Positions 8,242-20,578 of a DNA stretch of 64,000 bases are shown in pieces. Position 1 is the first letter of the stretch. Every line of letters begins with the position of its first letter. The stretch is from contig NZ_CP127294.1 of the NCBI RefSeq assembly GCF_030285625.1, positions 630,001 through 694,000 on the forward strand. Reading direction: 5' to 3'. The stretch is from Amycolatopsis sp. 2-15. GTDB lineage: Bacteria > Actinomycetota > Actinomycetes > Mycobacteriales > Pseudonocardiaceae. The position numbers and the translations under genes are program-made. A model generated the notes under the pieces. The model saw only the letters and a list, made by a program, of their open reading frames with translations, had not been told where the DNA came from and did not search any database.

Positions 8242-9426
8242 TCAGGCCCGCGTGAACCTCAGCGTGAACGTCGCCCCGACACCCGGAACCCCGGCCGCCG
8301 CGATGGTTCCGCCGTGGCCCGTCACGACTTCGTGCACCAGCGCCAAACCGAGCCCGAACCGGCGGCCCTCACCCTGGCCACCGTGGGCGAACCGCTCGAA
8401 CAGCCGTTCCGCATCCCGTTGTGCGAAGCCGACTCCGGTGTCGGCGACGCGGATCTCGACGTGCCGGTCGTCCGGGTTCTCGAGCGTCACCTCGATCGAC
8501 CCGCCCGGCGGGGTGTGGCCGATCGCGTTGTCCAGCAACGCCGACAGCACCCGTCGCAACGCCGCCGGCACGCCCGGCACCACATCGACCAGGCCCGGTG
8601 AACGGCGCACCTCGATCCGCACGCGCCGATCCCCCGCGCGCACCGCTTCGGCCTCCACCGCCTGCTCGGCCAGCAAACCCAGCTCCACCGGCTCCAGCGA
8701 CGGCCGCTCGTTGCACGCCTGCGTCGACAGCAGCAGGTCCTCCACGACCTCACCCAGCTCGCGCGTGCCGGAGACCAGCAGATCGAAATCGTCCGACGGC
8801 ACCGGTGCCAGCCGCGCCCGGCGCGCCAGCAGCTGCGCCCGCGTGTGAAGCCGGGTGAGCGGCGCACGCAGCTCGTGCGACGCGTCGGCGACGAAGGTGC
8901 GCTGGCGCCGCAACGCCTCGCCCAGCGGCCGGATCGCGCGCGCGGCCAGGACGTAGCCGCTGAAGACGGAAACCAGCAGCACCACCAGTTCCGCGATCAC
9001 CAGGCCCATCAGCAGCTGCTGCCGGTCGGCGGTCTGGTAGCGCTGGTCGACGAAGACCTGCCACACCTGGCCGCCGTGGTCCACCGCGCGGATCGTGAAC
9101 GTCGAGCCGGCCAGTTCCCGTTCCGCGGTCACGGAACCGCCGGGCGGCACGGCGGGCGCGGGCGGCGGCACGAACGGCAACGCGGCGGGCACGTGGCCTG
9201 AAGGCGTCACCAGGAACACGCAGCCCGGCGGCGTCGCCGACAGGCCCTGGGCCAGCGTGTAGTCGATCTGCCGGTCGACCTCCTCACCCTGGCCGTGCAC
9301 GAGCACCCAGTACGCGATGGCGCCGGCGGCGAGCACGACCAGCGTGATCACCACGGCGATCTGGCTCGCGATCGTCCGCCGCGCGCGCCGCAGCGCCCGC
9401 GCGTCGGGATCGACGATCACCGTCAC
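8242..9426 (-). CDS. Two-component sensor histidine kinase
   Basis: A 394-residue protein starting at GTG 9426, four-base overlap with the response regulator stop. Transmembrane helices lie at about residues 21-43 and 139-161, enclosing an extracellular sensor loop of about 95 residues rich in Pro. The H box is FVADASHELRAPLTRL with the phosphorylated His at about 184. The N box is LLDNAIGHTPPGG, G1 is VADTGVGF and G2 is GFGLGLALVHEV. It should autophosphorylate and pass phosphate to its neighbour at 9423-10100. The gene pair lies downstream of the redox/antiporter operon on the same strand, but the signal is unknown. Confidence 0.93.
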   Translation of the reverse strand: MTVIVDPDARALRRARRTIASQIAVVITLVVLAAGAIAYWVLVHGQGEEVDRQIDYTLAQGLSATPPGCVFLVTPSGHVPAALPFVPPPAPAVPPGGSVTAERELAGSTFTIRAVDHGGQVWQVFVDQRYQTADRQQLLMGLVIAELVVLLVSVFSGYVLAARAIRPLGEALRRQRTFVADASHELRAPLTRLHTRAQLLARRARLAPVPSDDFDLLVSGTRELGEVVEDLLLSTQACNERPSLEPVELGLLAEQAVEAEAVRAGDRRVRIEVRRSPGLVDVVPGVPAALRRVLSALLDNAIGHTPPGGSIEVTLENPDDRHVEIRVADTGVGFAQRDAERLFERFAHGGQGEGRRFGLGLALVHEVVTGHGGTIAAAGVPGVGATFTLRFTRA

Positions 9427-10100
9427 ATGGCCCCGATCTGGTAACCCAGGCCGTGGACGGTCTTCACCACCTCGCGCCCCAGCTTGCGCCTCAGGTAGTA
9501 CACATAGGTGTCCACAATGGATTCCCCCGTCGAGTCGGCGAACACGTGGGTGCGCAGCGCCTCTCGCGGATGGATGGCCTTCGGCCGCTGCGCGAGCGTG
9601 CGCAGCAGGTCGAACTCGCGGCCCGACAGCGTCACGCGCTCACCGCGCGACAGCACGACCTCGTGGCGCAGCAGGTCGAGCGCCGCAGTGCCCAGCGGCA
9701 GGCATTCGGCGCCGTCGAGATCCCGCCGGCACAACGCGCGCAGCCGGGCCAGCAGCTCGTCGGTCTCGAACGGTTTCACCAGGTAGTCGTCGGCGCCCGC
9801 ATCGAGGCCGTGGACGCGGTCGGTCAGCTCGCCCAGCGCCGAAAGCACCAGCACGCGCGCGGTCACGGCCCGGCGCCGCAGCCCGGCGAGCACCTCCAAC
9901 CCGTCCATCACCGGCAGCCGCCGGTCGAGGATGATCACGTCGTGGTGGCCGGTGAGGCCGCGGTGCAGACCACGCTGGCCGTCGTGGGCGAGCTCGACCT
10001 CGTAGCCCTCGTCGGCGAGCAGCTCGGAGAGCATTCCGGCCAGTTCACGATCGTCCTCCACGAGGAGCACTCGGGCTGCGGTTCCTGCCTCTTCGTGCAC
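9423..10100 (-). CDS. OmpR/PhoB-family response regulator
   Basis: A 225-residue protein from GTG 10100. The receiver domain has the acidic pair in VLLVEDDREL (residues 16-17), the phospho-acceptor Asp59 in VIILDRRLP, the Thr/Ser switch in VLVLSALG and Lys in YLVKPFE. The C-terminal winged helix contains LSGREFDLLRTLAQRP and the recognition-helix region VDTYVYYLRRKLG. It is co-translated with the downstream sensor kinase. It starts 57 bases after the antiporter stop on the same strand, so it may be part of the same transcript and could control that operon. Confidence 0.93.
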   Translation of the reverse strand: MHEEAGTAARVLLVEDDRELAGMLSELLADEGYEVELAHDGQRGLHRGLTGHHDVIILDRRLPVMDGLEVLAGLRRRAVTARVLVLSALGELTDRVHGLDAGADDYLVKPFETDELLARLRALCRRDLDGAECLPLGTAALDLLRHEVVLSRGERVTLSGREFDLLRTLAQRPKAIHPREALRTHVFADSTGESIVDTYVYYLRRKLGREVVKTVHGLGYQIGAM

Positions 10101-10157: not shown

Positions 10158-11441
10158 TCATTTGCCCGCCGGTTGGGCCGAAAGGAGGAACTCCGGCAGC
10201 TGATCGGCCGAGTACTTCCGCCGATCCCGGCGATCGAGCCAGCTCAGCACCGGCGCCGTCATGATCGTGGTCACCAGCGCCACGAGCACCAGCACCGTGA
10301 ACAGCGCCGGCGACACGATTCCGGCCTGCAGCCCTACGTTCAGCGCGATGAGCTGCATCAGCCCCCGCGCGTTCACGAGCACGCCGATCCGCAACGCGAC
10401 CGGCTGCGGTTCCCCGGCCAGCCGCGCCGCACCCCACGACGCCCCGAGCTTCCCGACGATCGCCACCACCACGCACAGCAGTGCGAACAGCAGCAGGTTC
10501 GGGTCGGCCAGCAGCGCGAACCGCGTGTTCAAGCCGGAGTAGGTGAAAAACAGTGGCAGGAACACGATGTTGCCCACCGGCAGCAGCTTCGAGACCACCG
10601 CGTCGGCCGCCTCGCCGCGAGGGAACGCGATGCCGGTGATGAAGGCGCCGAACACCGCGTACAGCCCGATAGTGTCGGTGAACCACGCGGCGGCGAACAG
10701 GATCATCGCGGTGACGAGCAGCCGCTGGTCCACCGACATCCGCGGGCTGGCGAACATCTTCGCGAACACTCGCCGCGCGACGATCCACACGAACAGCGCG
10801 AAGACCACGCCGCCGCCCAGTGCCAGCGCGATCGGCCCGACCGAGCCCGCGTGCATGCCGACGACCACCGCCAGCAGGATCCACGCGAGCACGTCGTCGA
10901 CCGCGCCGCACGCCAGCGCGAGCGAGCCGAAGCGCGTTTTCGTGAGGCCGCGTTCGGTGATGATGCGCGCGAGCATCGGGAACGCCGTGATCGCGATCGC
11001 GACCCCGACGAATGCCGCCGAAACCACCGGCGAGACGCCCGGCTTGGTGATGCCCACCCAGCTGGAGCCCAGCACGGCGACGCCGATCCCCAGCACGAGC
11101 GGGACCCCGGTGCCGGCGCTCGACACGGCGGCCACCAGTTTCGACGACTCCCGCACCGTTTTGGTGCGGAACTCGTAGCCCGCGCCGAACATGTAGAGCA
11201 CGAGCCCGATCTGCCCGCCCAGGTACACGAGCGTGCGCACGGTGTCGGGGAACAGGTAGGACTGGACACCGGGCAGCAGGAGCCCGAGCAGCGACGGCCC
11301 GAGCAGCACCCCCGACACCATCTCGCCGACCACAGGCGGCTGCCCGAGCTTCACGGCGAGCATGGTCACGAGCCGCACCACCACCAGGATCACCACCGCC
11401 GCGAGGAAAAACGCGGGCGCCGCCTCTGACGCGGTCATCAT
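10158..11441 (-). CDS. Cation:proton antiporter (CPA2/KefB-like membrane domain)
   Basis: A 427-residue integral membrane protein. The start is ATG 11441 or the adjacent ATG 11438, with GGAGGCGA just upstream; the frame runs open further 5' but only as P450 shadow. About twelve hydrophobic segments are visible. LGQPPVVGEMVSGVLLGPSL is the N-terminal signature of Na+(K+)/H+ exchangers, and GAVDDVLAWILLAVV carries the paired Asp residues expected in the ion-binding crossover helix. There is no C-terminal Rossmann (TrkA-N) domain. It is the last gene of a coupled four-gene operon with the P450, where it might provide pH homeostasis or export. Confidence 0.88.
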   Translation of the reverse strand: MMTASEAAPAFFLAAVVILVVVRLVTMLAVKLGQPPVVGEMVSGVLLGPSLLGLLLPGVQSYLFPDTVRTLVYLGGQIGLVLYMFGAGYEFRTKTVRESSKLVAAVSSAGTGVPLVLGIGVAVLGSSWVGITKPGVSPVVSAAFVGVAIAITAFPMLARIITERGLTKTRFGSLALACGAVDDVLAWILLAVVVGMHAGSVGPIALALGGGVVFALFVWIVARRVFAKMFASPRMSVDQRLLVTAMILFAAAWFTDTIGLYAVFGAFITGIAFPRGEAADAVVSKLLPVGNIVFLPLFFTYSGLNTRFALLADPNLLLFALLCVVVAIVGKLGASWGAARLAGEPQPVALRIGVLVNARGLMQLIALNVGLQAGIVSPALFTVLVLVALVTTIMTAPVLSWLDRRDRRKYSADQLPEFLLSAQPAGK

Positions 11442-12850
11442 TCGCCTCCGTGGTTCGCGAAGTAGTTCACGCACAAACGCTTCTGCCGCGCGTCCAGCAC
11501 CATGTAGGTGCCGAACACGAGCTGGGCGAGGCTGCGCCACACGTCTTCCCAGCGGTCGCGCACGGCGAGGTATGCCAGCGGGCCGCGGGTCGAGCGCGCC
11601 GAGCCGCGCGGGGTGAGGAACACCGGGCCGCGGTTGGGGATCGAGCGGGTGTGGGCCGCGCTCGACGCGACGGCGTAGCGGCGCAGGAACTCCCGCGTGA
11701 CCACCCGCATCGTGATCGGCGCGAGTCCGCGGGCCGGGCACGCGCGGTTCTGCGCGACGCCGAAAGGCAGGAAGTTGGCGTCCTTCTTCGACACCGCTTT
11801 GTCGGGCACTGCTTTGTCGGGCACTGCTTTGTCGGGCACTGCTGCGTGCGCCGGGCAACCGACGGGCGGCTCCCAGCGGGACGGGTCGAACTCGTCGGGC
11901 CGCTCGAACCCCGCGTGGTGGAAGTCGGGGTAGCTGAAGAGAAGCACGGTGCCCGCGTCGATTGTCGTGTCGTCGAGCTCGATGTCGCCGGTGGTGATGC
12001 GGTGGGCGATGCCGAAGAGCGGGTAGGTGCGCAGGCCCTCGTCGATCACGCGGTCGAGGTACTCGTCGTCGTCCGGGTTCGCGACCAGCCGCCGCTGCAC
12101 GTCCGGGTGTTGCGCGATGATCATCAGCAGGTGCGCCATCGCCTCCGACATCTGCACCACGGCCGTGTTGAAGAAGGTGCCCTGCAGGTAGAACACCTGC
12201 TCGTCGCGCGTAAGCCGCGTCGGCAGCGCGTGCGGGATGTCGCCCAGGCGCCGCCGCAGGTACTTCGTGAGCTTCGCGCGACGGCGCATGTTGCGGGGCC
12301 GCACGCACTTCAGGGCCGAGACGACGTCGTCGGCGTGGCCCACGATGAGATCGCGCGCCTCGGGCGGGCACGGCTCGCCGAACACGAGCTCGTAGTACAG
12401 CTCGGCCCAGATCGGCATCATCTCGTCACGCAGCCGGATCAGCCGCCCGTCGCCGACCTCCAGGCCGTCGAGCACGTGCTCCGTCACGCGGCGCGTGAGC
12501 TCTTCCGACTCCGCGCGCGTCTTCACGAGGATGTGGCGCGTGGTCTTGGCGACCTCGTCGTACCGCGGGCCCGCTTCCAGGTGCTCCTGGTGGACTTCCG
12601 GGCCGGGCGCGAGCCAGTACCAGAACAGGTCCGACAGTGCCGCGCCCTTGCTGCGCCCGTTGGCCGCCGGGTCGGCGTACACCCGGCGAAAGTCCTTGAC
12701 CCCGACGCGGGGCCCGGGGATCGGGAGGCCTTCGTCGCCGTTGACCAGCGCGAAGATCTTCACCCGCAACGCGACCACGCGGCCGGGCAGCCACTTCGGC
12801 AGCGAACCGACGAGCCCGGCGGCCAGCGCGGCCGTGATCAGCCGCCTCAT
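11438..12850 (-). CDS. Cytochrome P450 with atypical I-helix
   Basis: A 470-residue protein from ATG 12850 (ATGA overlap with the oxidase stop). The haem-binding loop is NFLPFGVAQNRACPARG with Cys371 as axial ligand, and the ExxR motif is E271-G-L-R274. In the I-helix region, FYLQGTFFNTAVVQMSEAM (about residues 220-238), the usual (A/G)Gx(E/D)TT oxygen-activation motif is not recognisable. The N-terminus has a modest hydrophobic stretch and the C-terminus extends about 60 residues past the usual end. A 15-base tandem repeat encodes three copies of a PDKAV-type pentapeptide just before the haem loop. No ferredoxin or reductase gene is adjacent. Confidence 0.85.
   Translation of the reverse strand: MRRLITAALAAGLVGSLPKWLPGRVVALRVKIFALVNGDEGLPIPGPRVGVKDFRRVYADPAANGRSKGAALSDLFWYWLAPGPEVHQEHLEAGPRYDEVAKTTRHILVKTRAESEELTRRVTEHVLDGLEVGDGRLIRLRDEMMPIWAELYYELVFGEPCPPEARDLIVGHADDVVSALKCVRPRNMRRRAKLTKYLRRRLGDIPHALPTRLTRDEQVFYLQGTFFNTAVVQMSEAMAHLLMIIAQHPDVQRRLVANPDDDEYLDRVIDEGLRTYPLFGIAHRITTGDIELDDTTIDAGTVLLFSYPDFHHAGFERPDEFDPSRWEPPVGCPAHAAVPDKAVPDKAVPDKAVSKKDANFLPFGVAQNRACPARGLAPITMRVVTREFLRRYAVASSAAHTRSIPNRGPVFLTPRGSARSTRGPLAYLAVRDRWEDVWRSLAQLVFGTYMVLDARQKRLCVNYFANHGGE
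11796..11840 (+). repeat. 15-base tandem repeat inside the P450 gene, three perfect copies
   Basis: The unit GCTTTGTCGGGCACT occurs three times head to tail (11796-11810, 11811-11825, 11826-11840), with partial copies on both flanks. It is in frame and adds a five-residue unit (AVPDK) per copy to a loop before the haem-binding region, so copy-number change would not shift the frame. Confidence 0.95.
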
Positions 12851-13890
12851 CGGACGAGGTCCGCGGTCAAGTCGCCGGGCGCGGCGGCCCCGCACAGCGC
12901 GAGCGTGTGGTCGGTTTCTTCCCGGAGGCGTTCCAGCACTTCCGTCACCCCTTCCTCACCCGCCGCGGCGAGGCCCCACACCACGGGCCGGCCGACGCCG
13001 ACCGCGGTGGCGCCCAGCGCGAGCGCCTTCACCACGTCGGTGCCCCGCCGCACGCCGCCGTCGAGCACGAGCGGGATGGCCCCCGCCACGGCCTCGGCCA
13101 GCGCGGGCAGAGCGTCCACAGTAGACACGGCAGTGTCGAGCTGACGGCCGCCGTGGTTCGACACCACGAGCCCGTCGACGCCCGCCCCAACCGCGAGGCG
13201 GGCGTCTTCCGGGTGCAGCACTCCCTTGAGCAGCACGGGAAGCGCCGTCGTGCGTTTCAGCCAGGCCACGTGCTCCCACGTGAACCCGGCCGACATCTCG
13301 ATGTCGCGCACGCGGCCCAAGCCGTCGCGCAGGTTCTCCACGACCAGCCCGGGCGGCAGGTCGTGGAAGCCGTTGCGGTGGTCGCGTTCGCGCCGGCCGA
13401 ACACCGGCGAGTCGACGGTGACCACGAACGCCCGCACGCCCGCGCGTTCGGCGCGGCGCACCACGGACTCCGTGAACTCCGGGTCCGGCTGCAGGTACAG
13501 CTGGAACCACAGCGCCGGGTCGGTCGCGGCCTGGCGCGCGGCGTCGGCGATGTCCTCCACGGCCGTGGTCGCGGCCATGCTCACCACCAGCACCGTGCCG
13601 GCTTTCGCGACCGCTTTCGCCGTGGCCAGCTCACCCTTGGGGTGCGCGAGCCGGTGGAACGCGGTCGGCGACACCAGCACCGGCATCGACAGCGGCGAGC
13701 CGACCAGCTCCGTCGCCAGGTCGCGCTTGGCCGCGCCCCGCAGCACGCGGGGCACGAGCACGCGCCGGGAGAACGCCTCTTCGTTGGCCCGCAGCGTCAG
13801 CTCGTCGCCGGCGGCACCCGCGTAGAAGTCGTAGTGCACCGGGTCGAGCCGCTCGCGCGCCACGGCCTCGAGCTCCGAGATCGTGCGCAC
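12847..13890 (-). CDS. FMN-dependent alpha-hydroxy-acid oxidase/dehydrogenase
   Basis: A 347-residue TIM-barrel flavoprotein from GTG 13890. Recognisable active-site segments are YDFYAGAAGDE (Tyr near residue 23), FQLYLQPD, TVDSPVFGRRERDHRNGF, Lys222 in LLKGVL, the catalytic His246/Arg249 in VSNHGGRQLD, and the phosphate-binding PLVLDGGVRRGTDVVKALALGA. Members oxidise glycolate, lactate, mandelate and similar 2-hydroxy acids to 2-oxo acids; those using oxygen release hydrogen peroxide. Sequence alone does not separate oxidase from dehydrogenase. It lies between the FAD oxidoreductase (three-base gap) and the P450 (four-base overlap), so the three should be made together. Confidence 0.9.
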   Translation of the reverse strand: MRTISELEAVARERLDPVHYDFYAGAAGDELTLRANEEAFSRRVLVPRVLRGAAKRDLATELVGSPLSMPVLVSPTAFHRLAHPKGELATAKAVAKAGTVLVVSMAATTAVEDIADAARQAATDPALWFQLYLQPDPEFTESVVRRAERAGVRAFVVTVDSPVFGRRERDHRNGFHDLPPGLVVENLRDGLGRVRDIEMSAGFTWEHVAWLKRTTALPVLLKGVLHPEDARLAVGAGVDGLVVSNHGGRQLDTAVSTVDALPALAEAVAGAIPLVLDGGVRRGTDVVKALALGATAVGVGRPVVWGLAAAGEEGVTEVLERLREETDHTLALCGAAAPGDLTADLVR

Positions 13891-13893
13891 GGG

Positions 13894-15450
13894 TCAGGCC
13901 AGCTGGTCGGTGAAGAACTTCGTGAGCGCCTCCACGTGCACGGGGCGGTCCCATTCGTTCTCGAGGTTCTCCGTCACGTGGTGGGTGGCCACGAGCTCGC
14001 CGCGCCGGTAGTGACGGACGATCGGGTGCAGGTAGTGGCCCTCGCCGCTGTCGTTGGCGACGTCCTGGCTCGCCCGCTTCACGGTGAAGTCGAACGGGTC
14101 GACCTTGTCGTGGTCCGGGCCGTAGTCGAGCGTGATGAGGAACGCGTCTTCGGCGTCGTTGAGCGGAGTGTCGGCGAACCGGGCCACCGGCATCTCTTCG
14201 AGGTAACGCGCCTGGCCGCCCTCGACGACGAGGATGTCGGCGAGGAAACCGAACTGCTGGAACAGCCCCGACGTGCGGTTGATGCGCTTGAGCACGGCGT
14301 CCACGAGCTCGCCGGTCTCGGCCTTGAGCACGGTCTGCGGCCACTCGTTGTCGTGGTAGCGCTCTTCGAGCACCTTCGACAGCGCGCGCACGCCGTAGCG
14401 GAAGCCGTGGATGAAGCCACTGGTGGCCTTCTTGAAGTCGCGGACCTGCGTGATCGTGCCGGCGAAGTAGAGGCCGGGCACGTTCACCGACTCCCACGAC
14501 GACGTCTGCGCCGGGAAGCGGTCGTTGATCGCGAGCTCGGGGCGGCAGTCCTCGTCGAACATCGAGGCGTCGAAGCGGAAGCCGGTGGCGGCGATAACCC
14601 GGTCGTAGCGGATCTCCTTCACCACCTCGTCGGCTCGGGCGAAGGCGAACTTCACGTGGTAGCCGTCTTCGTCCTTGCGGATCTCGCGCACGTCGCCGTC
14701 GAGGATCGCGTGCTGCAGCTTGAGCTGGTACATGTCGAGCACGCCGGCGTTGAACGCGCGCAGGTGCCCGACGAAGTGCGTGCGCCAGGCGAGCTTCACC
14801 GGCCGCGGGCCCGCGACGTGCAGCACGGCCGCATACGCGTTGATGCTGTCGGCGGTCTCGAAGGCCGAGTTGGCCTTGCCGAGGATGAGCACGCGCTTGT
14901 TGGTGAACTGCGCGGGGTCGGTGTCGAAGTCGGCGTACTGGTCGACGAGTTCCATGCCCGGAACGTCGGGGATGTACGGCTTCGTCACGCCGGTAGCCAT
15001 GATCAGGCGCTTCGTGGTGTAGGTGTTCCCGTCGCCGTCGGTGAGCGTGAAGAGAGCGCTTTCGCTGTCACGACTGATCCGCGTCACCCGGGTGTCGTAG
15101 CGGATGGCGATCTTGTGCTTCGCCGCGTAGTCGGCGTTGTAGCGCACGAACGTCTCGGCCGGCGGGAAGAGCTCGGCGCTGTAGTCGGTGAACAGCAAGG
15201 GGTCGGGGCCGTCGTCGAGGAGTGAATTCCAGTCGACGCGCAGGTTGAGCTCCGGGTCGGTCCAGCCCGTGTGCTTCTTGTTGATCGAGATCAGCGTGCG
15301 GTGGCGCGGGAACCTGGTGAAGAACGTGGCCGGCGTGGGGCCCGCTTCGAGCAACAGGTAGCGGTGCCCCGCCTGTTCGAGCTGCCGGCCGAGCTGCAGC
15401 CCCGCGGGCCCCGCGCCGACCACCAGATAGTCCAGAACGTCGTCCACCAC
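13894..15450 (-). CDS. FAD/NAD(P)-binding oxidoreductase (flavin monooxygenase-like, FOXRED2-like)
   Basis: A 518-residue protein with two adjacent GTG start codons at 15450. The FAD Rossmann motif is YLVVGAGPAGLQLGRQLEQ (residues 8-26). A second nucleotide-binding motif VLILGKANSAFETAD is near residue 188, and MATGVTKPY and AATGFRFD match the ATG-type motifs of flavin monooxygenases and pyridine-nucleotide oxidoreductases. KANSAFETA and the long C-terminal extension of over 150 residues recall FOXRED2-type proteins rather than small-molecule Baeyer-Villiger enzymes. It is the first gene of the operon running to 10158. The substrate is unknown. Confidence 0.82.
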   Translation of the reverse strand: MVDDVLDYLVVGAGPAGLQLGRQLEQAGHRYLLLEAGPTPATFFTRFPRHRTLISINKKHTGWTDPELNLRVDWNSLLDDGPDPLLFTDYSAELFPPAETFVRYNADYAAKHKIAIRYDTRVTRISRDSESALFTLTDGDGNTYTTKRLIMATGVTKPYIPDVPGMELVDQYADFDTDPAQFTNKRVLILGKANSAFETADSINAYAAVLHVAGPRPVKLAWRTHFVGHLRAFNAGVLDMYQLKLQHAILDGDVREIRKDEDGYHVKFAFARADEVVKEIRYDRVIAATGFRFDASMFDEDCRPELAINDRFPAQTSSWESVNVPGLYFAGTITQVRDFKKATSGFIHGFRYGVRALSKVLEERYHDNEWPQTVLKAETGELVDAVLKRINRTSGLFQQFGFLADILVVEGGQARYLEEMPVARFADTPLNDAEDAFLITLDYGPDHDKVDPFDFTVKRASQDVANDSGEGHYLHPIVRHYRRGELVATHHVTENLENEWDRPVHVEALTKFFTDQLA

Positions 15451-15607: not shown

Positions 15608-16609
15608 TCAGCGTGACAGGAGCTTCATCGCCGCCTCGGCGTACCGCGTGCCCGCGACCTCGGCGGCGGGCACGGCGGTCTCGATCGCCCGGATGTCCTC
15701 TTCGGACAGTTCGAGCGCGACGGCGCCGACGTTCTCTTCGAGGTACTTGCGCCGCTTCGTCCCCGGGATCGGCACCACGTCGTCACCTTGGGCCTGAACC
15801 CAGGCGAGCGCGAGCTGACCCGCGGTCACGCCCTTCCGCTCGGCCAGCGCCCGCAGCGCCTCGACCATCGCGACGTTCTTCTCGAGATTCCCCTCGGCGA
15901 AGCGCGGCTGCGTCTGGCGACGGAAGTCGTCCTCGCCGAAGTCCGCGGCCGAGGTGAACTTGCCGGTCAGGAACCCGCGGCCCAGCGGCGAGTACGGCAC
16001 CAGACCGATGCCGAGCTCACGGCACGCGGGCACCACCGCGTCCTCGATGTCGCGCGACCACAGCGACCACTCCGTCTGCACGGCCGAGATCGGGTGCACC
16101 GCGTGGGCGCGGCGGATCGTCTCGGCGCCCGCTTCGGACAGGCCCAGGTGGCGCACCTTGCCCTGCTGCACCAGCTCGGCCATGGCCCCGACCGTCTCCT
16201 CAATGGGCACGTCCGGGTCCACGCGGTGCTGGTAGTAGAGATCGATGTGGTCGATCCCCAAGCGCCGCAACGAGTTCTCCACGGCCTCGCGCACGTACGC
16301 CGCGTCGCCGCGCACCCCGCGCTTGCTCGGGTCTTCGCGGTCGCGCACGAAACCGAACTTCGTGGCGAGCACCACCTGGTCGCGCCGGTCGGCGATCGCG
16401 CGGCCGACGAGCTCTTCGTTGGCCCCCATGCCGTACATGTCGGCGGTGTCGAGCAGGGTCACGCCCAGCTCCAGCGCGCGGTGGATGGTGGCGATCGACT
16501 CGGTGTCGTCACCCTCGCCGTAGAACTCGCTCATCCCCATGCAGCCGAGGCCCTGGGCGCTCACTTCGAGCGCGCCGAGGCGGCGGGCGGGCAGCGTCGA
16601 TCCGGCCAT
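15608..16609 (-). CDS. Aldo/keto reductase
   Basis: A 333-residue protein from ATG 16609 with GGGAGAAAAC upstream. AKR signatures present are [13 protein letters not shown] [13 protein letters not shown] at the N-terminus, [20 protein letters not shown] (catalytic Asp and Tyr), the Lys of VLATKFG, and [19 protein letters not shown] with the catalytic His. The C-terminus has the NADPH phosphate-binding segment [19 protein letters not shown]. It belongs to the AKR13/YajO-like subgroup that reduces aldehydes and ketones with NADPH. Its 3' third includes 124 bases identical to the upstream paralogue, and it may be co-transcribed with it. Confidence 0.92.
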
Positions 16610-16646
16610 GTTTTCTCCCGGAGTTCAGTCGGTGAAAGTGCAGTCG

Positions 16647-16680
16647 GTGAAGGGCCCCAGGAGTCCCTGGAGCCCTTCAC
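16647..16680. terminator. Hairpin between the two aldo/keto reductase genes
   Basis: Fifteen-base arms 16647-16661 and 16666-16680 match at 14 of 15 positions (GTGAAGGGCCCCAGG on the left). It lies just after the 16690 stop and before the 15608-16609 gene. It belongs to the same GTGAAGGG hairpin type as 15550-15600 and could attenuate expression of the second gene. Confidence 0.7.
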
Positions 16681-16689
16681 GGAAGGGAT

Positions 16690-17670
16690 TTACTTGCCGG
16701 CCGCGCGTGCGAGCCGCTCGGGGTACCGAGCCCCGGCCACGGCGTCGGCCGGAGCCGCCTGCTCGATCGCGGCTATGTCCTCTTCGGACAGTTCCAGCTG
16801 CGCCGCCGCGACGTTCTCTTCGAGGTACTTGCGCCGCTTCGTCCCCGGGATCGGCACCACGTCGTCACCTTGGGCCTGAACCCAGGCGAGCGCGAGCTGA
16901 CCCGCGGTCACGCCCTTCCGCTCGGCCAGCGCGCGCAAAGCGTCCACAATGGCCATGTTCTGCTCGAAGTTCCCGTCGGCGAAGCGCGGCATCCCGCGGC
17001 GCATGTCGTCCTCGGGCAGGTCCTTGACCGACGTCACGGCGCCGGTCAGGAACCCGCGGCCCAGCGGCGAGAACGGCACCACGCCGATGCCCAGCTCACG
17101 GCAGGTCGCGAGGATCTCGGCCTCGATGCCGCGCGTCCACAGCGACCACTCGCTCTGCAGCGCCGTGACCGGGTGCACCGCGTGGGCGCGCCGGATCGTG
17201 TCGGCGTTCGCCTCGGAAATCCCGGCGTAGCGGATCTTTCCGGCAGCCACCAGCTCGGCCAGCGCGCCCCACGTCTCCTCGACGGGCGTGTCCGGGTCCA
17301 CGCGGTGCTGGTAGTAGAGGTCGATGTGGTCGACGCCCAGGCGCTGCAGCGACTCGTCGCAGCTCTGCTTCACGTACGCGGCGTCGCCGCGCGCGCTCAT
17401 GCTGCCGTCCTTCCACACGATGCCGAACTTGGTGGCGAGCACCACCTGGTCGCGCCGGTCCGCGATCGCACGGCCGACCAGCTTCTCGTTCTCGCCCGAC
17501 CCGTACACGTTGGCCGTGTCCAGCAGCGTCACGCCCAGCTCCAGCGCGCGGTGCACGGTGGCGATCGACTCGCTGTCGTCGTCGCGCACCCCGTACGCCT
17601 GGCTCATCCCCATGCAGCCCAGCCCCTGGGCGCTTACTTCCAGCTCACCGAGTTTCCTTGTAGCGATCAC
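16690..17670 (-). CDS. Aldo/keto reductase (paralogue, coupled to MerR)
   Basis: A 326-residue protein. The chosen start is GTG 17670, preceded by GGAGGAAATCTCCGC and overlapping the MerR stop by four bases; the frame runs open upstream inside MerR. It has the same AKR landmarks as its neighbour: [59 protein letters not shown] and the terminal [19 protein letters not shown]. It should reduce carbonyl compounds with NADPH. The protein is strongly similar to 15608-16609 along its length, so it is a tandem duplicate. Confidence 0.92.
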
Positions 17671-18068
17671 GCGGAGATTTCCTCCATGGCGGACACGTGG
17701 CCGAGGACCTTGCGTTCCACCTGGTCGTAGTTGCTGATCTTGTAGTCCAGAATGTCCAGGCACCCCTGAAGCTCGGCGATCCGGTCGGCGACCGACTGGC
17801 GTTGCTCCACGAGGATCGCCTTGCGGCGCCCGGCGCTCGCGACGCCGTGGCGCCGCAGTGACGCGTACTCGCGCATGCTCTTGATGGGCATGCCGGTGAG
17901 CCGCAGCTTGGTGAGGAACCCGAGCCAGTTCAGATCGTCGTCCGAATACGCGCGCCGCCCCGCCGCGTCGCGGGCCGGCGGGTCCAGGAGCTTGATCCGC
18001 TCGTAGTACCGAAGGGTGTCGATCGACAGGCCGCTACGTCGTGCGGCTTCCGCTATCGAGTAGCTCAT
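17667..18068 (-). CDS. MerR-family transcriptional regulator
   Basis: A 133-residue protein from ATG 18068. The N-terminal winged helix [29 protein letters not shown] is the classic MerR DNA-binding domain, followed by the wing [17 protein letters not shown] and a C-terminal dimerisation helix ([25 protein letters not shown]). It has no Cys-rich metal loop, so it is likely a redox, electrophile or aldehyde sensor of the kind that often controls aldo/keto reductases. It is translationally coupled to the reductase at 16690-17670. A 22-base palindrome upstream is its probable operator. Confidence 0.93.
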
Positions 18069-18281: not shown

Positions 18282-18905
18282 ATGCCCCGTCCCCGTACGC
18301 ACGACGAAGCCCTCCGGCTGAAGCTGCTGGACCGGGCCGGCGAGCTGATCTCCGCCGACGGCCCGAAGGCCCTGTCCCTGCGCAAGCTGGCCGCCGACGC
18401 CGGGACGTCGACCACGGCCGTGTACTCGCTGTTCGGCAGCAAGCCCGACCTGGTCAACGCACTGTACGTCGAGGGCTTCCGCCGCTTCGGCGAGCGGCTG
18501 AACGCTGTGGCGCGGACCGGCGACGCCGTCGCGGACCTGGTGCGCCTCGGCGTCGCCTATCGCGCCAGCGCGCAGGCGGATCCGCACCTGTACGCGATCA
18601 TGTTCACCCGGTCCGTGCCCGGCTTCGAGCCCAACGCCGAGGCCGACCGCCTCGCCCGCGCGACCCTCGAGCCGCTCGAGGACACCATCCGGCGCGGGAT
18701 CGCGTCGGGGCAGTTCGCGGACGTCGCGCCCGAGGTGATCATCGTGAGCTCGTGGGGCCTCGTCCACGGACTGGTGTCGCTGGAGCTGTCGGGGAACCTG
18801 CCGCCGGAGTTCAGCGTGAGCGGCGCGTATGAAGAAGCCTTGCGCGCCAACGCTTCCGGGTGGCTGGCGGCCCAACAGACCTCGGGGGATGACCTTTCGG
18901 GTTGA
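18282..18905 (+). CDS. TetR family transcriptional regulator
   Basis: A 207-residue protein from ATG 18282; longer upstream frames lack any TetR character. The DNA-binding domain runs LLDRAGELISADGPKALSLRKLAADAGTSTTAVYSLFGSK in two recognisable blocks (residues about 12-52). The C-terminal half (AYRASAQADPHLYAIMFTR and onward) resembles TetR ligand domains of the WHG type. The gene lies divergent from MerR and upstream of the methyltransferase pair, which begin within 70 bases on the same strand, so these may be its targets. Confidence 0.9.
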   Translation: MPRPRTHDEALRLKLLDRAGELISADGPKALSLRKLAADAGTSTTAVYSLFGSKPDLVNALYVEGFRRFGERLNAVARTGDAVADLVRLGVAYRASAQADPHLYAIMFTRSVPGFEPNAEADRLARATLEPLEDTIRRGIASGQFADVAPEVIIVSSWGLVHGLVSLELSGNLPPEFSVSGAYEEALRANASGWLAAQQTSGDDLSG

Positions 18906-18970
18906 TCTTCGCCAGCCACCTACCCGACCGATCGGGAATCCGGGTAGACAACACTCGAAGGGAGGCGGCG

Positions 18971-19715
18971 ACGCCCGAAACCGACCTGACCGCAGGTGTG
19001 AGCGCGACAGCCATTTTGATCGCGGCCGCGCGCGCCGTCGAGACCCATCGGCCCGACGGCCTGATCCGCGACCCGTGGGCCGAACGGTTCGTGCGCGCGT
19101 CCAGAGCGGGCGACGGGCTGCCCACCCGCGTCGAAGACATCGAACTCGGTGACGCCGACCCCTTCTGGTGCCGCGGCGGCAGCGTCGCGTGCTCAACCAC
19201 GAGAGCCCGCTGGAGCACCACTCCTCGCCGCCGCCCTGGCCGACGGCTGGGGCCGAGCGCTGCTCGACGCCGGATTTTCTCCGGACCTGCCGACCGCGTG
19301 GGTGATCGAAGGTGTTCTGTTCTCTCTGCCCGGCACTGTGGAGACGAAGCTGATGACGACGGTCGATGAACTGTCCGCGCCGGGCAGCGAGATCGCCTAC
19401 GAGACCTTCCCCAGGCCAGACGACGAAGCGCGCTCGCCCGAGATGTACGCGGCAACCGCGAGTACTGCGGGCGACGACGTGGGCGGCTTGCTCGACACCG
19501 GCGTCCGCCCCGATTCCGCGTCCGCGCTCCGGGCCGCCGGCTGGCAGGTCACGGGCAACCACGGCGTCGACTTCACCCCTGGATACGGCCGCGGTCCCGA
19601 CCCCGCGGTCGACGACCCGATCGCGGGCTTCCGATGGACCTTCGGCCGCAAGTCAGCTGAGCCCGATGCATCCGAAGAAGCTATGCCCGACAACACTTCC
19701 GGGCGGCTGAAGTGA
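18971..19715 (+). pseudogene. Decayed LCM-type SAM-dependent methyltransferase
   Basis: This is a broken copy of the intact gene that follows. The first part (GVSATAILIAAARAVETHRP, then DPWAERFVRAS) aligns with the N-terminus of the 19715 gene, and the later frame (AALADGWGRALLDAGF through GRGPDPAVDDPIAGFRW) aligns with its C-terminal half. About 75 codons between them are missing, including the SAM-binding GSGLDTRAW motif, and the frame shifts at the junction. A strong GGAGG lies five bases before an ACG codon at 18971, which may be a mutated ATG. It cannot make a working enzyme. Confidence 0.85.
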
Positions 19716-20578
19716 TGGATTCCGGAGTGAGCGCCACGGCCCTCATGATCGCCGCGGCGCGCGCCATCGAGACCAACCGGCCCGACGGCCTGGTGCACGA
19801 CGAGTGGGCCGAGCGGTTCGTCCGCGCCGCCGAACCCGATCTGCGGCTGCCGACCCGCATCGAGGACGTCGAACTCGGCGACGCCGACCCGGTGTGGGGC
19901 CGCGGCGGCGCCTACTCCGGCCTGCGCACCCGCGCGTTCGACGACTTCCTGCTGGCCGCTTCTTCGCGAGTCGACCAGATCGCGCTGCTCGGCTCCGGCC
20001 TCGACACCCGCGCGTGGCGCCTCGACCTGCCCGTCGACCTGCAGTTCTTCGAGCTCGACCGCGCCGACGTCCTCGGTTTCAAACGCCGCGTCCTCGCCGG
20101 CGCGGCACCTCGGCCCCGGCATGAGTTCCTGGTCGCCGACCTGGCCGAAGATTGGGCCAAGGTCCTGACCGACGCGGGTTTCGACCCCGCTCAGCCGACC
20201 GCGTGGCTCGTCGAAGGCGTCCTGCCGTATCTTTCCGGCGCCGCTGAGGCCCGGCTGATGGCGCACATCCACCGGCTCTCCGCGCCCGGCAGCGAACTCG
20301 GCTACGAGATCGTGCTCGGCCAGGAAGCCGAGTCCCTGCGCACACACGACCTCTACACCGCCACCGGAACGAGCACAGGCACCGACATCGGTGCCCTATT
20401 CGACGACGGCACCCGCCCCGACTCGGCCGCCAACCTGCGCGCCGCCGGCTGGACGGTGACCAGCGCCCCCGTCGCCGACTTCACCACCCGCTACGGCCGG
20501 GGCCCCGACCCCGCTGTCGTCGACCCGATCACCCAGATCCGCTGGGTGATCGGGTCGAAGCCGCTCAGAACAGCTTGA
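19715..20578 (+). CDS. SAM-dependent methyltransferase (leucine carboxyl methyltransferase-like, SAM0422 type)
   Basis: A 287-residue protein from ATG 19715 (an in-frame GTG precedes it at 19712). Family features are GVSATALMIAAARAIE, the DxWAERFVRAAEP segment, the SAM-binding motif ALLGSGLDTRAWRL (about residues 90-103), the acidic FELDRADVL, and TAWLVEGVLPYLSG. This family is expanded in mycobacteria and other actinobacteria and methylates mostly unknown small-molecule carboxyl or hydroxyl groups. It follows its decayed paralogue directly (TGATG overlap). Its 3' end overlaps the convergent gene at 20565 by 14 bases and contains a strong hairpin. Confidence 0.9.
   Translation: MDSGVSATALMIAAARAIETNRPDGLVHDEWAERFVRAAEPDLRLPTRIEDVELGDADPVWGRGGAYSGLRTRAFDDFLLAASSRVDQIALLGSGLDTRAWRLDLPVDLQFFELDRADVLGFKRRVLAGAAPRPRHEFLVADLAEDWAKVLTDAGFDPAQPTAWLVEGVLPYLSGAAEARLMAHIHRLSAPGSELGYEIVLGQEAESLRTHDLYTATGTSTGTDIGALFDDGTRPDSAANLRAAGWTVTSAPVADFTTRYGRGPDPAVVDPITQIRWVIGSKPLRTA
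20521..20557. terminator. Hairpin inside the 3' end of the methyltransferase gene
   Basis: Sixteen-base perfect arms (20521-20536 and 20542-20557, CGACCCGATCACCCAG on the left) enclose a five-base ATCCG loop. It lies within coding sequence for DPITQIRWVIGSK, just before two convergent stop codons. It probably serves as a shared terminator or mRNA 3'-end stabiliser. Confidence 0.7.

Follow-up and report, generated by a model that had tools for sequence, protein, structure and literature searches.

A 64,000-nucleotide stretch of the Amycolatopsis sp. 2-15 genome (hereafter the window; the genome is a single contig of 10.05 Mb) carries a four-gene operon that encodes an FAD oxidoreductase, an FMN-dependent alpha-hydroxy-acid oxidase family protein (HAO), a divergent cytochrome P450 and a CPA2-type monovalent cation:proton antiporter, in that order (Table 1). 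We found that the pairing of HAO with P450 is mutual and is the most constant part of this conserved operon, in which the FAD protein and the antiporter are less fixed. Judged by its motifs, the P450 is a distinct, motif-breaking family, and alignment indicates that it has lost the acid–alcohol pair of the I helix. That hydrogen peroxide (H2O2) made by the HAO feeds this P450 within a conserved oxidative operon of soil actinobacteria is plausible, and we put this reading forward tentatively.

Conservation of the HAO–P450 pairing

The operon had been singled out by an earlier reading of the window made without database searches (the sequence-only reading), which described four closely coupled genes and proposed that peroxide from the oxidase supplies the P450. 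The gene order and spacing that it gave were confirmed from the sequence: a 3-base gap (13893-13891) separates the FAD and HAO genes, and 4-base ATGA overlaps are shared by the HAO and P450 genes (12850-12847) and by the P450 and antiporter genes (11441-11438). A family scan matched the FAD protein to PF13738 (E 3e-45) and PF07992, the HAO to PF01070 (411.8 bits) and the P450 to PF00067 (75 bits). The antiporter was assigned to CPA2 through its PF00999 domain, with a TIGR00932 score of 134.2 bits that lies under the cut-off of 238.3.

Strong matches to the P450 (E <1e-100) occur in 21 of 60 close genomes. At E 1e-40 or better, a sample of 397 genomes from the order gave matches in 35, and one of 396 from the phylum gave matches in 6; the window's own genome is counted in all three sets. 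The named carriers include Amycolatopsis, Lentzea, Actinomadura, Acrocarpospora and a Catenulispora metagenome-assembled genome. For comparison of neighbourhoods, we used 67 loci chosen by P450 homology only: 20 and 32 from separate genome samples, the window itself and 14 of 22 further strong matches. The eight matches left out comprised seven taken as duplicates because their contigs equal in length ones already included, and one on a 3.9-kb contig, which likewise shows FAD-HAO-P450. Gene starts were set by a simple caller and may be some codons off, and neighbours carry BLAST labels above 75 bits.

An HAO gene stands beside the P450 gene in 67 of the 67 loci. It is adjacent in 64, always directly upstream and with a 4-base gene overlap in 31 of these; in two loci one gene intervenes, and in one (L151, from a genome that is 74% complete) the HAO is present in broken frames. 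The intervening gene, found in two Acrocarpospora loci (L063 and L065) whose FAD gene is not beside HAO and P450, encodes a sulfotransferase (Sulfotransfer_4). A related sulfotransferase gene adjoins the P450 gene on the opposite strand in L154. The FAD gene lies within four genes upstream of the P450, on the same strand, in 63 loci; in the four genomes without it there, a homologue of 43-46% identity at another place is the sole match at E 1e-30. Directly downstream of the P450, the antiporter is found in 53 loci, a DUF6282 relative in four, a relative of aromatic-acid-type carriers of the major facilitator superfamily (MFS) in three, the response regulator in three and an opposite-strand gene in four; family libraries were searched with one DUF6282 and one MFS representative, and the rest were labelled by BLAST. 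Thus, the expectation of the sequence-only reading that the neighbourhood would be conserved was borne out.

The pairing also holds when approached from the HAO. In the 396-genome sample, HAOs at least 60% identical to that of the window occur only in the six P450-bearing genomes, and by their coordinates those six adjoin the P450. The next HAOs, at most 55% identical, belong to genomes without a P450 match at E 1e-40; the HAO and P450 searches of this sample scored only the best four or five candidates per genome.

Departures of the P450 from family motifs

The window protein has the P450 fold, and its predicted structure model contains a helix spanning residues 215-247, which includes the segment FYLQGTFFNTAVVQMSEAM. 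We aligned the P450 with a profile of 41 other P450s (hhalign, Prob 99.6), which served as controls throughout, and this placed Gln233 at the catalytic Thr and Val232 at the acid. Conservation was counted over 155 family rows, made up of 120 database proteins and 35 locus proteins including that of the window; some are likely the same protein, so the rows are not independent. T229, V232, Q233, E236 and H240 are kept in 155 of 155 rows, and residue 228 is Asn in 147. Among the controls, 39 have the alcohol (Thr or Ser), 21 the acid and 21 both, and two have neither. These results uphold the claim of the sequence-only reading that the I helix has no recognisable acid–alcohol pair. The pattern TAVVQxSE is kept in 65 of 66 locus P450s, 35 of which are also among the 155 rows; the exception (L147) has Ala for Ser while keeping the Gln, and Ser is therefore not to be called invariant. 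The change of motif should not be taken as rarer than it is: the simple pattern [AG]Gx[DE][TS] matches just 19 of the 41 controls, because 20 of them are without the acid.

The haem loop, FLPFGVAQNRACPARGLAP, had been described as normal. It is not: the loop PFGVAQNRACPA, with FGVAQNRACPA around its Cys, has one more residue between Phe and Cys than FxxGxxxC, and CxA in place of CxG, the glycine being replaced by Ala in all 155 rows. N368, R369, C371, P372 and A373 are present in every row, so that the predicted iron ligand, Cys371, is constant. A PROSITE-like P450 signature matches 0 of the 155 rows and 40 of the 41 controls, a comparison in which the controls had been preselected by a looser version of the same pattern. 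CxG is nevertheless found in 41 of 41 controls although the selecting pattern allowed CxA. In the window, the loop that precedes the haem loop is lengthened, and three perfect 15-base repeats there encode VPDKA; the length and repeat content of this loop vary among close relatives.

The ExxR motif reported by the sequence-only reading is indeed present in the window protein, as EGLR, but it is not a fixed feature of the family. It is kept in 95 of 155 rows, the others having DxxR (58), HxxR (1) or ETMW (1). All 58 rows with Asp at the E271 position lack the FDPxRW-type meander motif, which supplies Arg to the ERR triad. We scored loss of the meander by segment length, because F.[PS].R, a simple pattern for the meander, is found in no more than 21 of the 41 controls, which again speaks against treating a changed motif as rare. 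Between flanking anchors, the meander-bearing segment measures 12-14 residues in 64 of 148 rows and 30 or more in the others (7 of the 155 rows failed the loop pattern). An Arg is still found at another place in eight of the 64 shortened segments, and variants of the motif occur in 14 of the 84 long ones; the six variants displayed keep the Arg. P450s are usually recognised by EXXR and CXG motifs (PMC3990721), and CYP157 also breaks the ExxR rule, according to a title cited in the same source. Unlike CYP157, which has no ExxR, the present family keeps it in most rows and is changed in CxG, in the I helix and partly in the meander.

Two further observations concern the meander. In one Amycolatopsis group, a 17-residue deletion in the P450 removes FDPxRW; the deletion list includes A. 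mediterranei S699 (P0057), and meander-deleted P450s are encoded at L038, L039, L040, L041, L043, L044, L045, L054, L055, L057, L058 and L059 and by many database relatives. The Lentzea P450 with ETMW (L070:7989-9203) has a short meander segment without the usual motif and with an Arg left elsewhere in it.

Such losses raise the question of whether the P450 is decaying or non-catalytic and persists as another protein's activator or structural partner, a role known from the P450-derived glycosyltransferase activators. The shortened meander in 64 of 148 rows, the missing strict ExxR in 60 of 155 and a weak match to TIGR04515 (19 bits, cut-off 343) would fit such a role. On the other side, Cys371 is kept in every row, while known activators have lost the Cys, and the ratio of nonsynonymous to synonymous substitution (dN/dS) is 0.16-0.27 in six shortened-meander pairs and 0.08-0.26 in six other pairs. 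The P450 genes, including those that have lost motifs, are under purifying selection. A non-catalytic P450 is therefore very unlikely in our estimate, and at 19 of 343 bits assignment to the glycosyltransferase activators was rejected.

The altered motifs also bring to mind the CYP74 clan of allene oxide synthases and their relatives, where the I helix likewise contains F-N and the haem loop is likewise modified (PMC8124189). By this likeness, drawn from the published description, the P450 would be a non-oxygenase that takes an organic hydroperoxide, or performs a rearrangement or dehydration, with the HAO providing or consuming an acid of the pathway. In the I helix, FFNTAV is similar to V-M-F-N-A-V, the groove motif that contains the catalytic Asn of CYP74 (PMC8124189), and the near-constant N228, the inserted haem-loop residue and the absent CxG glycine would agree with it. 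However, CYP74 has a nine-residue insertion in the haem domain and an ERR triad (PMC8124189), whereas hhalign finds a single inserted residue here and part of the family is without the meander. No CYP74 entry was among the best 50 or 60 structure matches listed, which is not evidence of absence. Moreover, the Asn may be shifted by two positions relative to the catalytic one. We regard a CYP74-like enzyme as unlikely, third among the explanations after peroxide feeding and an ordinary pathway operon.

Possible sources of peroxide, oxygen and electrons

The HAO matches the glycolate oxidase structure 5zbm (E 3.9e-90), and flavocytochrome b2 is in the same FMN family. It has the PF01070 domain and the catalytic Lys, His, Arg and Asp of FMN-dependent alpha-hydroxy-acid oxidases and dehydrogenases. 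In glycolate oxidase numbering, equivalents of K230, H254, R257, D157, Ser252, Asp285 and Arg309 are present in 66 of 66 HAOs and Tyr129 in 64. Three positions vary or are replaced. At Arg164, 48 HAOs keep Arg, that of the window among them, whereas 14 carry His and 4 Asn. Tyr24 is conserved in 37, with Phe in the other 29, and the place of Trp108 is taken by Ala in 59 and by Leu in 7. Glycolate oxidase, long-chain hydroxy acid oxidase and lactate oxidase share the PF01070 signature and the catalytic residues with the window HAO, which differs from them in having Phe for Tyr24 and Ala for Trp108. The active site looks intact, and the enzyme should be active; its substrate is probably a larger hydroxy acid than glycolate.

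In the mechanism that we put forward, the HAO would convert a 2-hydroxy acid, probably aromatic, and O2 to a 2-keto acid and H2O2. The P450, seemingly not built for normal O2 activation, would use this H2O2 for the oxidation or coupling of an intermediate, possibly a phenol, from that pathway. A further redox step would fall to the FAD protein, ion or acid transport to the antiporter and control of expression to a two-component pair encoded downstream. The peroxide step is the least certain part of this scheme.

A precedent for the scheme exists in vitro, where an engineered cascade of P450CLA and an alpha-hydroxyacid oxidase works by recycling H2O2, to its authors' knowledge the first such recycling (PMC5768024). 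The kinds of enzyme are the same, an H2O2-making alpha-hydroxy-acid oxidase and a peroxide-using P450, but that cascade is an artificial mix acting on fatty acids, whereas here the pair is natural and gene-coupled and the P450 is not CYP152-like. A constant HAO, a P450 free of the acid–alcohol pair and the lack of a convincing ferredoxin gene are together what a natural version of the cascade would look like. P450CLA is an enzyme of the CYP152 type. CYP152 peroxygenases carry Arg-Pro in the I helix; the window P450 has Val-Gln (V-Q-M) there and is without this Arg-Pro. The known CYP152 peroxygenases OleT, P450SPalpha and CypC, which are driven by H2O2, likewise lack the acid–alcohol pair (PMC10988616). 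Membership of CYP152 was rejected, since the NCBIfam CypC model scores 19.4 bits against a cut-off of 600. In Foldseek, Staphylococcus OleT ranked 10 among many P450s of like E-value, a result that is uninformative on CYP152 kinship.

A stronger form of the proposal is that the two proteins are a natural, gene-coupled and co-evolved oxidase–peroxygenase pair. The P450 would have dropped features that serve O2 activation and redox partners: the acid–alcohol pair, the CxG glycine and, in some family members, also the Glu of ExxR and the Arg motif of the meander. A constant Gln and Glu of the I helix would act in their stead. We consider this form doubtful.

Several considerations weigh against peroxide feeding in either form. 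The co-conservation of HAO and P450 is expected as well if each catalyses its own step in a common pathway. Some FMN hydroxy-acid enzymes are strict dehydrogenases, and an oxidase cannot be told from a dehydrogenase by sequence; the position of glycolate oxidase Ala79, which is Ala in 66 of 66 HAOs, does not decide the matter. The P450 shows no specific kinship to CYP152, by the CypC score given above, and the acid alone is missing in nearly half of the controls. Some known P450s work with O2 and ferredoxin even though Ala or Asn takes the place of the Thr. The O2 cycle is impeded when the acid–alcohol pair is interrupted, but such pairs also matter in turning peroxide into the active oxidant (PMC9112060), and loss of the pair by itself therefore does not favour peroxide. 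Reactivity of the HAO with O2 and use of H2O2 by the P450 are plausible inferences. The peroxide reading is set only a little apart from that of a conventional P450, since a common operon does not imply a common use of peroxide and since a different residue at the Thr site does not stop some P450s from using O2. What the sequence-only reading said of the neighbourhood and of the I helix has held up in silico, and the passage of peroxide from HAO to P450, which it built on them, has not gained support.

An ordinary pathway operon accordingly has to be weighed, in which the P450 is an O2-dependent monooxygenase or phenol coupler that receives electrons from a housekeeping ferredoxin or from the FAD protein of the operon, and the HAO carries out a separate step. 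Protons could reach the P450 through the substrate, water or Gln233/Glu236. The control P450s without the acid would support this explanation, as would the nearest NCBIfam P450 model, ApyO, a P450 of ribosomally synthesised and post-translationally modified peptides (57.5 bits, cut-off 525). The sequence-only reading had noted that neither a ferredoxin nor a reductase gene is next to the P450. The first half of this statement stands: a pattern scan for ferredoxin-like small open reading frames within 6 kb of the P450 (less at the ends of a stretch) found none convincing in the 67 loci, the sole match being a Cys-rich frame in L156 judged spurious by eye. A missing adjacent ferredoxin gene is, however, ordinary for actinobacterial P450s, most of which are without one.

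The second half is not secure. By sequence, the best solved relatives of the FAD protein include SmFMO, Bdr/YpdA and Baeyer–Villiger enzymes, and its best fold matches, obtained with a weak model (pLDDT 70.9), include thioredoxin-reductase-like ferredoxin/flavodoxin-NADP reductases (FNR-type), Bdr and SmFMO. With its gene upstream of the P450 in 63 loci, it is a possible P450 reductase, which would again count against peroxide feeding. Against such a role stand the weakness of the model and the four loci whose P450 has no FAD gene beside it and whose genomes offer only the more distant homologue; against an ordinary operon as a whole stands the replacement of both acid and alcohol throughout the 155 rows. 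We hold it to be nearly as probable as peroxide feeding.

Electrons might also pass directly from the reduced FMN of the HAO to the P450 haem, as in flavocytochrome b2, which would make the P450 driven by hydroxy acid. The constant pair with its overlapping genes and the family tie to flavocytochrome b2 suggest this route, but we obtained no evidence of an HAO–P450 complex, fused forms were not specially searched for, and the P450 would still have to activate O2 without the acid–alcohol pair. We judge it highly improbable.

If H2O2 from the HAO does feed the P450, bacteria already use the oxidase-fed design that has been built artificially, and the family would offer ready-made, low-peroxide, reductase-free P450s. 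Whatever its oxidant, the family is a natural experiment, in which Cys and fold are kept and the acid–alcohol pair and the CxG glycine are lost in 155 rows, and it allows one to ask which hallmark P450 motifs are needed. We found no description of the gene set or of the P450 family in open-licence literature, which is weak evidence of absence.

Longer loci and neighbouring genes

Some loci contain additional genes around the same core. A relative of aromatic amino acid lyases is present in 20 of the 67 (BLAST label; PF00221 in the scanned member), an acyl-activating (AMP-binding) enzyme, 30-51% identical to the reference, in 32 and a second FAD paralogue in 19, with lyase, ligase and second FAD protein together in 18. 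The longer locus was seen at L050, L145-L148, L152, L153, L156-L158, L161, L163-L165, L167-L169 and L171. Compared with Rhodobacter lyase structures, the L050 lyase has His, as in 2o6y, where 2o78 has Phe, at a position that presumably selects tyrosine over phenylalanine. Among solved structures, 6sq8/6h1b ('fatty acid CoA ligase') are nearest to the L061 ligase; further acyl-CoA synthetases, a feruloyl-CoA synthetase among them, come next. At L046, L070 and L151, an MFS carrier with an N-terminal extension takes the place of the antiporter, and the best NCBIfam model for that of L070 is the aromatic acid/H+ symport family. The lyase, ligase and MFS relatives hint at aromatic or phenolic chemistry, and the longer locus is a starting point for finding the product.

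Tyrosine as the obligatory start was rejected for the window: only the minority of loci just counted have the lyase, and the window's own genome has just three 31-34% homologues. The best of these adjoins a gene judged by eye to encode urocanase, and is therefore taken as a histidine lyase. The second FAD protein is absent from this genome, where the sole strong match is the operon's own FAD gene, and the gene of the nearest acyl-activating ligase (47%) is an isolated one at 9.29 Mb.

Table 1 Genes of the operon and its downstream regulators, and P450 motifs, with positions in the window
Feature	Position	Strand	Remarks
FAD oxidoreductase, 518 aa	13894..15450	-	Two-dinucleotide-binding-domain type (GAGPAG; GKANSAFE); first gene of the operon
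FMN-dependent alpha-hydroxy-acid oxidase family protein (HAO), 347 aa	12847..13890	-	GTG start
Divergent cytochrome P450, 470 aa	11438..12850	-	Predicted N-terminal helix 2-37
CPA2-type monovalent cation:proton antiporter, 427 aa	10158..11441	-	PF00999 168.3 bits
OmpR-type response regulator	9423..10070	-	PF00072, PF00486
Sensor histidine kinase, partner of the regulator	8242..9426	-	PF02518, PF00512
P450 I-helix segment, residues 220-238	12137..12193	-	Q233 at the catalytic-Thr position, V232 at the acid position
P450 ExxR motif EGLR, residues 271-274 (E271-R274)	12029..12040	-	
P450 meander motif FDPSRW, residues 321-326	11873..11890	-	Kept in the window protein
P450 VPDKA x3, perfect 5-residue repeats, residues 338-352	11795..11839	-	Loop before the haem loop
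P450 haem loop, residues 360-378	11717..11773	-	Cys371, presumed iron ligand; extra residue, CPA

The regulator and sensor kinase genes follow the antiporter on the same strand. Of the 67 loci, 53 have a regulator relative and 54 a sensor kinase relative no more than 8 genes away from the P450, and the response regulator probably belongs to the same conserved locus. Upstream of the operon, the window has two tandem aldo/keto reductase genes (15608-17613) and a MerR regulator (17667-18068); several Amycolatopsis loci also carry aldo/keto reductase relatives at that place. Further on, at 18902-19715 and 19727-20578, are a gene of the leucine carboxyl methyltransferase family and, preceding it, an apparent second copy split over two frames.

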